NCBI GenBank assembly: GCA_029834535.1
Contig: JAQMWT010000012.1
Span: 62,001-126,000 of the forward strand
Reading direction: 5' to 3'
DNA: 64,000 bases
Source of the DNA: Chrysophaeum taylorii
Taxonomy: Eukaryota; Sar; Pelagophyceae; Pelagomonadales; Pelagomonadaceae
Below the pieces are notes generated by a model. It was not told the origin of the DNA. It ran no database searches and worked only from the letters and a program-made list of their open reading frames with translations. Positions 22,238 to 26,290 of the stretch are shown here, in pieces (the stretch's first letter is position 1; each line of letters opens with the position of its first letter). The position numbers were made by a program, and so were the translations under genes.

Positions 22238-22807
22238 ATGGGGAAGTACAACTTCATCCCTGACGACGCCGACGAGTCGAGCAAGGCGTCCGGATCATCG
22301 CTCCGCGCGCACTTCAAGCACTGCCGCGAGGTGTGCCACGCCATCAAGGGAATGAAGCTTGGGCGTGCCAAGTCGTATCTTGAGGACGTGCTACAGTATA
22401 AGCAGGCGATTCCCTTCACGAAATTCACGGGAGGCGTCGGGCGGCACGCGCAGGCCAAGCAACTGAAGAGCGCGGGCGACAAGGTCCGATGGCCCCAAAA
22501 GGCGACGCGCATCATTCTCGACCTCCTCAAGAATGCCGAAGCCAACGCCGAGATGAAGGGCCTGGACGTCGACGAGCTCTTCGTCAAGCACTCCCAGGCG
22601 AATCGCGCCCAGAAGCAGCGCCGTCGCACCTACCGTGCCCACGGCCGCATCAACCCCTATATGTCCTCGCCCGCCCATATCGAGCTCGTCCTCTGCAAGT
22701 ACCAGGAGCCCGTCAAGAAGGCCGAAGATTCCGGTGATCTGCCGAAGCTCACTCGCAAGCGCCAGCAGCAGGCCCGCCTCAAAGCTGGGGGCGGCATCGA
22801 CGACTAG
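22238..22807 (+). CDS. RPL17: Cytosolic ribosomal protein uL22 (RPL17)
   Basis: A 189-residue protein of normal length for eukaryotic RPL17/uL22. Diagnostic stretches: [77 protein letters not shown]. It lines the peptide exit tunnel of the 60S subunit. A TTCG-type tetranucleotide run (CGTTCGTTCGTTCGTT) and a GTT run lie in the 145-bp upstream interval. No intron is needed. Confidence 0.97.
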
Positions 22808-22928: not shown

Positions 22929-23903
22929 ATGAAACCCAAGGTGTTCGAGGTGGACGGGTCGAGCGTGACGTTGTGGTGGGAGGGCGTCGCTGGCGCGGAG
23001 AGCTACGGAGTGCAGATGCGACTGGTCGGGGAGGAGTTTCGGACTCTGAGCACGACGCTCGGGGCGCCGCGGGTTCGGAAGAAGGGTTTGGAGGCGGGGC
23101 AGAGGTACGAGTGGCGCGTCGCGTGTGTGGCTAATGGCGGCGAGGTTGGCGAGTGGTCGGAGATCGTGTCGGCGGGCCCGACCGAGGCGCACCAGATGGA
23201 GCCGCCACGCGTGTCGGACTACGACGGCGAGTCGGCGACTGTCCACTGGTTGCCGCGACAGACGATCGGCGGCGTTCCGGCGCCGCCGCCGTACGCTCTC
23301 CAGATTTTTGAAGGGGGCTGGACCCTCGCATCGGAGGCCCTCCAGGGCGACAAAGTCCTCAAGCACCACCTCGAGCCCGGCGTGACGTACCACTTTCGAG
23401 TGAAACCGGTAAACGCGCCGAATTTCGAGTGGTCGAGGGCGTCCGAGGGCGTTACGATTCCCCGGCCCGAGCCCCGCATGGCCCAGGCCTTCGGCCCGAC
23501 GCTCCTCAAGGGCTCAAAGCGCCTCGACACCGTCAACGCCCTCGCGGGAAAGCTGGTCGCCGTCTACGCGTCGGCCTCGTGGTGACCCGCGTGCGGGCAA
23601 CACGCCCCCAAGCTCGCGACCGACGCCAACGTCCTCAAGGCTGCGCGTCGCCGCTTCGAGGTCGTGCTGCTATCGTGCGAGCGTGATCAGGCCAGCTTCG
23701 ACGCGTCCCTCGGCCGCTACCCCTTCCTCGCCGTGCCCTTCGATGCCCCCCAGCGCGAAACCGCGCTCGCCCACTTCAAGGTCACCGCCATCCCTCGCCT
23801 CATCGTCCTCTCGCCGCGGGGCGACATTATCGTCGACAACGCCGCCGGCATGCAGGGCCTCACCATCCAGGCCGTCGACGCCTGGCTCCGCAACTACCGC
23901 TAG
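22929..23903 (+). CDS. Probable selenoprotein: FN3-FN3-nucleoredoxin-like, TGA as Sec
   Basis: 324 codons from ATG 22929 to TAG 23901, with one in-frame TGA at 23583-23585 (codon 219). Two fibronectin type III domains come first (about 3-82 with SVTLWWEGVAGAESYGVQMR and YEWRVACVANGG; about 88-180 with TYHFRVKPVN). From about 190 a nucleoredoxin/tryparedoxin-like thioredoxin fold follows: LLKGSKRLDTVNALAGKLVA, VYASASW-TGA-PACGQHAPKL, then VTAIPRLIVLSPRG with the cis-Pro. TGA sits exactly at the first active-site Cys of WCxxC, and coding sequence continues cleanly after it, as expected for selenocysteine. I could not find a convincing SECIS by eye in the roughly 90 nt before Helitron repeats begin. 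The alternative is a mutated Cys codon and a broken gene. Confidence 0.75.
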
Positions 23904-24002
23904 ACAACAACGTCCTTTCTTTGGAGACGACCCGGTTGATGATGATGATGACCCATCACCCCCGTGATGGCGACGAAACACACCTTATCAACGGTCCTTA
24001 CT

Positions 24003-24211
24003 ACTAATCGACAGATGTTTGTCTGTCTGTTTGTCTGTCTTTAAATGTCGACTGCTAAGAGGGGGGGGTGTGTGTGGGGAGCATGAAGGATGTCTGTTTG
24101 TCTTTAAATGTCGACTCCTAAGAGGGGGGGGTGTGTGTGTGTCTGTCTGTCTGTCTGTAAATGTCGACTGCTAAGAGGGGGGGGTGTCCTAACTACTAAT
24201 CGACAGATGTT

Positions 24212-24242
<31 letters not shown>

Positions 24243-24250
24243 TTGTCCCT
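24003..24250. repeat. Tandem TTTAAATGTCGACTGCTAAGAG repeats
   Basis: Three copies of a roughly 50-60 bp unit made of TGTCTGTCTGTT runs, TTTAAATGTCGACT(G/C)CTAAG and a G run with TGTGTG. A fourth copy lies at 25246-25290 and a related one at 15497-15625. Confidence 0.85.
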
Positions 24251-25245
24251 CGATTTAGGGTAAGGATCAGATAGGCGCGAGAGTAAGCATCAGGTAGGCG
24301 CGAGAGCCAGAAAGTGATCCTCCAAGCCGTCTACGGCGACCTCGCACACTATTTCCACGACCCGCGGCGGCTCTTTCAGCGCGCCATTCTCACGCCCCGT
24401 CGAAACGATGTTGTCGATGCGGACAACGCGCGCATGACCGCGGCCTTTTTTTCCCGGAGACGAGGCGTCGGAGTTCTTTTCGGCTGACTAGGCTGGGTCG
24501 GAAGACGACGCCTCGCTCTTTACAGTAGAGTTTTCAACTCCCTGACAACCAACGGCATGCTGACTTTGATCGCGAGCTTAATGTCTTCTCAACCTCGACC
24601 CGTCGCACGGCCACTGCAACGGTACCAGATACATGATCGATCGTGTCGTTGTCACCGAGGCTCCTCCAACCTGTATCCCGTAAGGCCCGCCGACGCCAAA
24701 CGATCACCAAGAGCCAGGGCCAGACGCCCCGCGAGGTCGGCGTCCTCTTGCCCAAGCCCGTCTTCTGCCACGTCCAGCTCTACGTGGCTCTCTGTCGATC
24801 GGCAACCCCGAGGAGATATCTCTTCTGGGTCGACGACTCCACCCTACACGTGCTGCGCAATACCGATAAGCCCCCTCCCGGCGTCTACACGCGCACTATA
24901 GGTAAACTTACTGGGACCAGGTGAACTTACTGAGGTTTGAGATTGGGACTAGGTGAACTAAGTGACCAGGTGAACTTACTGGGACCAAGTGAACTTACTG
25001 GGGTTTTTAGAGTGAACGCAAGGGCTAGCGGCGTGTACGGATCAAAGCAGCTTAGATTGGCGGAGGTGAGAGCGACGAGCTCGAAGGAGAGTGGGGTGAG
25101 TGGATGTGAGCACGAGTGGGCTTACGCCGAACTTACTGGGGTTAGAGATTGGGACTAGGTGAACTTACTGGGACCAGGTGAACTTACTGGGGTTAGAGAT
25201 TGGGACCAGGTGAACTTACTGGCGAACTTACTGGCCTGCACTTGT
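24241..25245 (+). mobile_element. Decayed Helitron helicase end, copy 1
   Basis: Translations in shifting plus frames match the C-terminal part of Helitron Pif1-type helicases: DPRRLFQRAILTPRRNDVVD, then VEFLNSLTTNGM-like sequence, then ITKSQGQTPREVGVLLPKPV and HVQLYVALCRSATPR. The frames are broken by stops (for example after GVLFG near 24485), so no active protein is encoded. Downstream of the helicase lies a cluster of GTGAACTTACTGGGACCAG units (about 24905-25235) and a GATCAAAGCAGCTTAGATTGG block. The unit is repeated in the next 1 kb. Confidence 0.75.
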
Positions 25246-25296
25246 GTCTTTAAATGTCGACTGCTAAGACTAGTAAGAGGGGGGTGTGTGTGGGGA

Positions 25297-26290
25297 GCAT
25301 GTCTGTCCCACGATTTAGGGTAAGGATCATGCAGGCCCGCGAGCCAGTCATTGATCCTCCAAGCCGTCTGTGGCGACCTCGCAGACTGTTTCCACGACCC
25401 GCGGCGGCTCTTTCAGCGCGCCATTCTCATGCCCCGTCGAAACGATGTTGTCGATGCTGACAACGCGCGCATGACCGCGGCCTTTTTTTCCCGGAGACGA
25501 GGCGTCGGAGTTCTTTTCGGCCGACTAGGTTGGGTCGGAAGACGACGCCTCGCTCTTTACAGTCGAGTTTTCAACTCCCTGACAACCAACGGCATGCTGA
25601 CTTTGATCGCGAGCTTAAAGTCTTCGCAACCTCGACCCGTCGCACGGCCACTGCAACGGTACCAGATACATGATCGATCGTGTTGTGTCACCGAGGCTCC
25701 TCCAACCTGTATCCCTTAAGGCCCGCCTACGCCAAACGATCAACAAGAGCCTGGGCGCAGACGCCCCGCGAGGTCGGCGTCCTCTTGCCCACAAGCCCGT
25801 CTTCTGTCACGTCCAGCTCTACGTGGCTCTCTGTCGATCGGCAACCCCGAGAATATGCTCTTCTGAGTCGACGACTCCACCCTACCCCACACGTGCTGCG
25901 CAATACCGATAAGCCCCCTCCCGGCGTCTACACGCGCACTGTAGGTGAACTTACTGGGACCAGGTGAACTTACTTACTGGGGTTTGAGATTGGGACTAGG
26001 TGAATATAGTGACCAGGTGAACTTACTGGGACCAGGTGAACTTACTGAGGGTTTGAGAGTAAACTCTAAGGTTGGCGGCGCGTGCGGATCAAAGCAGCTT
26101 GGATTAGCGGAGGTGAGAGCGACGAGCTCGAAGGAGAATGGGTGTGAGCACGAGTGGGTTTACGCCAGGATAGAGATTGGGACTAAGTGAACTAACTTAC
26201 CACTAACTGACCAGGTGAACTTACTGGGACCAGACCTGAACTTACTAGGGTTAGAGATTGGGAGTAGGTGAACTTACTCGCCTGCACTTG
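25297..26290 (+). mobile_element. Decayed Helitron helicase end, copy 2
   Basis: Near-copy of 24241-25245: CGATTTAGGGTAAGGATCA, LQAVCGDLADCFHDPRRLFQ, RAILMPRRNDVVDADNARMT, FSRRRGVGVLFG, VTSSSTWLSVDRQP (the other frame of the LYVAL region), then GTGAACTTACTGGGACCAGG units and GGATCAAAGCAGCTTGGATT. Copy 2 keeps a longer first frame but has its own indels (for example around 25686 and 25855). It ends about 30 bp before the start of the formaldehyde fusion gene, so element sequence forms that gene's upstream region. Confidence 0.75.

Follow-up and report, generated by a model that had tools for sequence, protein, structure and literature searches.

A probable selenoprotein gene joining two fibronectin type III domains to a tryparedoxin/nucleoredoxin-like domain in Chrysophaeum taylorii

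Does the single TGA inside a long reading frame of the alga Chrysophaeum taylorii end a protein, or is it read as selenocysteine (Sec)? The frame lies in a 64,000-nt stretch of contig JAQMWT010000012.1 (the window). A preliminary description had placed an in-frame TGA exactly at the first Cys of a thioredoxin WCxxC motif, and we found the same: this TGA is the only internal stop in the frame (Table 1). We propose that the locus is very probably a nuclear gene for an intracellular selenoprotein, in which two fibronectin type III (fn3) domains are followed by a tryparedoxin/nucleoredoxin-like domain with the active site W-Sec-P-A-C. The frame and its domains can be seen in the sequence, and so can the catalytic placement of the TGA, the Sec machinery of the genome, and a 3' element that matches those of the genome's other Sec genes.

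Table 1. Features of the candidate gene and its 3' flank (positions in the window)
Feature	Position	Strand	Basis or detail
Read-through frame, complete	22929..23903	+	218 codons, one TGA, 105 codons, TAG = 324 residues + stop
Fibronectin type III domain 1 (residues 6-81)	22944..23171	+	PF00041, 27.6 bits scanned alone; cut-off 25 bits
Fibronectin type III domain 2, divergent (residues 94-173)	23208..23447	+	PF00041, 21.5 bits, E 2.7e-4 scanned alone; cut-off 25 bits
Tryparedoxin/nucleoredoxin-like thioredoxin domain (residues 207-300)	23547..23828	+	PF13905 (Thioredoxin_8), 67 bits, cut-off 27, model 1-94/94
TGA read as selenocysteine 219, first-Cys position of WCxxC (W-U-P-A-C); resolving Cys 222	23583..23585	+	Translation, sequence comparison
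TAG terminator	23901..23903	+	End of read-through frame
Predicted SECIS-like stem: long lower stem, internal loop, quartet, upper stem	23929..23996	+	RNA fold of 23929-23999, −21.5 kcal/mol
SECIS core of the genome's own type: ATGA-C-CCATCAC-CCCC-GTGATGG-C-GA-C	23948..23974	+	Hairpin rule match 44 nt after stop

The frame is 337 codons long from stop to stop, so there is little sequence upstream of its ATG, and the upstream neighbour (22238-22807) encodes ribosomal protein L22p/L17e according to Pfam. The proposal that two fn3 domains precede the redox domain holds for the first domain, which exceeds the Pfam cut-off; the second is divergent and scores below it. When the full protein is scanned, fn3 scores 41.7 bits over two stretches. 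The redox domain does continue for 105 codons beyond the TGA to a normal stop, as had been claimed: the piece after the TGA, scanned alone, scores 49.9 bits against PF13905. The GC contents of the three codon positions also point to coding sequence both upstream and downstream of the TGA: they are 0.66/0.50/0.86 ahead of it and 0.71/0.48/0.90 past it, as compared to 0.41/0.61/0.45 in the 300 nt that are 3' of the TAG. No signal peptide was apparent by eye, and an intracellular location is our guess. A single-sequence AlphaFold model of the protein was poor (mean pLDDT of 51.7) and was set aside. Elsewhere in the assembly, a 14,490-codon open frame with many fn3 matches (L060; G000:C5, about 229,000-265,000) might encode a giant protein.

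A profile search of the whole genome with PF13905 gave seven matches. The candidate has exactly one internal TGA, and the other six have no stop. Among solved proteins, the closest by sequence are tryparedoxins (3e-14, PDB search), which have WCPPC where the candidate has W-TGA-PAC; the search program put C in place of U, so the Sec column is itself no evidence in this comparison. Contig C679 of the same genome encodes the best-scoring paralogue, a Cys protein with two domains that shares 40% identity with the candidate across 98 residues and by our reading is nucleoredoxin-like; a weaker paralogue on C392 reads WCPAC. Overall, the position of codon 219 is occupied by Cys both in paralogues of this genome (WCPPC, WCGPC, or WCPAC) and in the solved tryparedoxins. 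As is expected of a eukaryotic selenoprotein, then, the TGA stands at a redox-active Cys and conserved coding sequence lies beyond it. We found no relatives in viral contigs or prokaryotic genomes, using searches that are sensitive to close relatives only.

A selenoprotein also requires an organism that can make it. The assembly that contains the window (70.8 Mb) includes a 104-kb contig that we take to be the plastid from its translations; its PsaA gives almost equal scores against several solved photosystems, and the source is probably a photosynthetic alga with a plastid of the red type. The assembly encodes tRNA-Sec, eEFSec, and SepSecS. The tRNA-Sec gene scores 60 bits, relative to a gathering score of 47, and has the anticodon TCA in the anticodon loop CUUCAAA. 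eEFSec is a frame of 644 codons that scores 446 bits against a solved eEFSec and contains the eEFSec_4th and euk_SelB_III domains; it falls under the cut-off for the bacterial SelB model alone (204 vs. 242 bits). SepSecS is a frame of 540 codons (397 bits).

The genome also has other genes that appear to use Sec. Five family searches of the genome identified 12 genes from known families whose in-frame TGA is located where these families carry Sec: SelW, a SelW fusion, SelT, SelH, two GPx, two SelU, MsrA, and three Sep15/SelM (L023, L024, L025, L027, L036, L037, L039, L040, L047, and L061-L063). We left two loci out of the count: L041, which is SelU-like but whose Sec codon was not located and which failed the hairpin rule described below, and L048, which is an MsrA match with an internal TGA and an internal TAG. 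(L041 has ATGAC 47 nt after its stop, and its Sec codon is perhaps in another exon.) In the SelW fusion (L025:1500-2811, G000:C404), a single open frame encodes a spermidine synthase domain (PF01564, 150.8 bits) and then a SelW-type Sec domain with an in-frame TGA, so that this genome would have two unusual selenoprotein fusions, this one and the candidate. In another SelW gene (L023:1740-2030), the 3' end and the start of the 3' element are partly duplicated, giving two stops, each of which is followed by ATGAC after 24 nt.

The preliminary description had asked for a SECIS downstream of the gene, and by the genome's own standard there is one: the assumed 3' UTR contains a SECIS-like element, 44 nt from the stop, that has the form seen at the known Sec genes. 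We recognized this form by eye, as an ATGAC shared by the candidate and the known Sec genes when viewed together, and based a hairpin rule on it (ATGAC followed by a hairpin that is closed by [C/T]GA). The candidate was in view when the rule was written, as were the first nine Sec genes; only the three Sep15/SelM genes (L061-L063) were held out. ATGAC is present 24-69 nt after the stop in 12/12 Sec genes and within 100 nt of it in 2/20 non-Sec genes (for the first nine Sec genes vs. the 20 non-Sec genes, P = 5.5e-6, Fisher test). Within 200 nt of the stop, the full rule is matched by 10 of the 12 Sec genes, none of the 20 non-Sec genes, and the candidate, whose hairpin at +44 has a folding energy of −8.7 kcal/mol. 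Among the first nine Sec genes, seven match, with L036 and L037 counted as failures. All three of the held-out genes have ATGAC (at +46, +26, and +40) and match the rule, and all three of their elements close in CGAC, as the candidate's does. The non-Sec genes were picked by hand from sampled loci. For each, the first in-frame stop beyond the Pfam match was taken as its end, and some of these stops could be misplaced if an intron was overlooked. As a background, we counted 18 matches to the rule in 299,742 nt on both strands, or about 0.6% per 100 nt. (This sequence comprised the window and sampled nuclear loci, from which Sec loci, plastid-like loci, and overlapping loci had been removed.) In the 12 Sec genes, the C that follows ATGA is in most cases opposite a C or a T next to the GA, and many of the apices are C-rich by eye.

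Folding stability is less informative. The candidate's 71-nt segment (23929-23999) folds better than most of its shuffles (z = −3.18, 1/200 as good), and the stem on a differently cut segment gives z = −2.09 (10/300 as good). But the first nine known elements fold no better than their shuffles (z from −0.90 to +1.45), so we dropped stability as an argument and the candidate's z adds little. There is also a GATG repeat ahead of the candidate's core, which could yield ATGA by chance. Further downstream (24010-26050), the window contains TGTC repeats and 19-base GTGAACTTACTGGGACC-type repeats, and by eye the region of about 24250-24500 recurs in diverged form near 25300-25500.

How does the candidate element compare to a canonical SECIS? 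Like the eukaryotic SECIS described in PMC2375036, it has an ATGA...GA quartet, a lower and an upper stem, and CC in the apical loop, which is an allowed form. In contrast, its upper stem and apical loop are shorter, the C after ATGA faces C or T, and in this genome's 12 Sec genes the element begins only 24-69 nt after the stop. The rule given there (NTGA..CC..GA, with a distance of 10-13 nt between the quartet and AA/CC and a further 15-39 nt before GA; PMC2375036) does not fit the candidate's spacing, which is 8 nt from the quartet to CC and 10 nt from CC to GA. The quartet-CC spacing is also 8 nt in a SelU gene (L039) and in the MsrA gene (L047). The energy limits that the same paper lists (at most −12.6 kcal/mol for the whole element and at most −3.7 for the upper stem; PMC2375036) are satisfied, at −21.5 and −8.7 kcal/mol, as computed with ViennaRNA rather than with that study's own program. 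The candidate's apical loop is 4 nt, and a SECIS model for Asgard archaea has a type I apical loop of 8-20 nt (PMC11227280). Our initial canonical-style scan required the inner length to be at least 24, and for this reason its matches at the candidate were all unconvincing. An Rfam search of the window found no SECIS, and SECIS_1 did not match anywhere in the genome, known Sec genes included (133 of 648 first-look candidates were scored). As the known Sec genes fail SECIS_1 too, that model is uninformative for this lineage.

One alternative to a Sec codon is an ordinary Cys gene in which TGC or TGT became TGA through an error of sequencing or assembly. Either Cys codon is a single base away from TGA and Cys paralogues do exist, but an error would leave the Sec-type 3' element at +44 as a coincidence, at the background rate given above, and the genome uses Sec at such positions in at least 12 other genes. 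We consider an error to be very unlikely. It seems a shade less probable still that the TGA is a real stop, whether in a recently broken gene or in a 218-residue fn3-fn3 protein. A Cys codon can mutate to TGA, and the fn3 part is complete before it. However, this would be the sole stop within 324 codons and it falls on the catalytic residue; coding GC and PF13905 homology last for the 105 codons to the normal stop; and the Sec-type element comes after the distal TAG, not after the TGA.

Another type of explanation is that TGA has been reassigned throughout the genome (to Cys, for example), or is generally read through, so that Sec is not involved. In-frame TGA is present in several genes, and the excluded MsrA match with both TGA and TAG might be taken in the same way. 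Yet TGA terminates 4 of the 20 non-Sec frames that we examined, so the code is not simply reassigned. Also, the TGAs of the 12 counted genes are at the known Sec positions of their families, and tRNA-Sec, eEFSec, and SepSecS are all present. Reassignment or general read-through therefore has a negligible chance of being correct.

If the TGA encodes Sec, then eEFSec would insert it, using tRNA-Sec, and the predicted stem would guide the insertion through a SECIS-binding protein. Sec219 would then attack a disulfide or another oxidized substrate by thiol-selenol exchange, and Cys222 would resolve the resulting selenenyl-sulfide. The fn3 pair may have no part in catalysis and instead serve as an arm by which the redox domain docks to a partner.

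The fn3-fn3-redox layout had been described as unfamiliar. The layout is real, but Sec proteins with a thioredoxin fold are already known from algae, so we view the candidate as a variant and not as a new kind of protein. Tryparedoxins (1o73, 6gxg) and two-domain nucleoredoxin-like proteins have the same PF13905 domain, which is full length in the candidate; the candidate differs in that Sec replaces the first Cys, that two fn3 domains precede the redox domain, and that there is only one redox domain. Ostreococcus and Thalassiosira are known to have Sec-containing thioredoxin-fold or thioredoxin-like proteins (PMC2375036), and PDI, TlpA, and other selenoprotein families have been described from algae (PMC7539508). 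The Ostreococcus and Thalassiosira proteins and the algal TlpA and PDI proteins share the candidate's thioredoxin fold, and no fn3 fusion is described for them in the available parts of these papers (PMC2375036; PMC7539508). We set them apart from the candidate by these partial descriptions, and one of them could be a relative that lacks fn3. In the main text of PMC7539508, the words "fibronectin" and "tryparedoxin" do not occur. Algal fusions such as SELENOM-pVHL and SELENOM-ShKT, which it describes, join a known selenodomain to an unrelated module, as in the candidate, but in the candidate both the selenodomain and the module are different (PMC7539508). In the open-access literature, covered mostly at the level of titles and the starts of abstracts, we found no mention of a selenoprotein that contains fn3.

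What looks new is thus the twin-fn3 fusion together with the lineage's compact, C-rich SECIS. With some reserve, we favor the view that the fn3 pair carrying a Sec tryparedoxin/nucleoredoxin-like domain is a new selenoprotein family, in an alga with a compact SECIS of a lineage type. That type would be defined by ATGAC whose final C is opposite C or T, C-rich apices, an upper stem that can be as short as 5-7 pairs, and a location 24-69 nt after the stop, and it would be missed by the Rfam SECIS model. If so, the selenoproteome gains a domain layout and the nucleoredoxin/tryparedoxin group gains a selenium form. More broadly, the Sec genes of this genome escape Rfam SECIS_1 and yet have a common and simple signature just after the stop. 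The ATGAC signature could serve to list the alga's whole selenoproteome, and elements of this type could test how far the upper stem of a SECIS can shrink.
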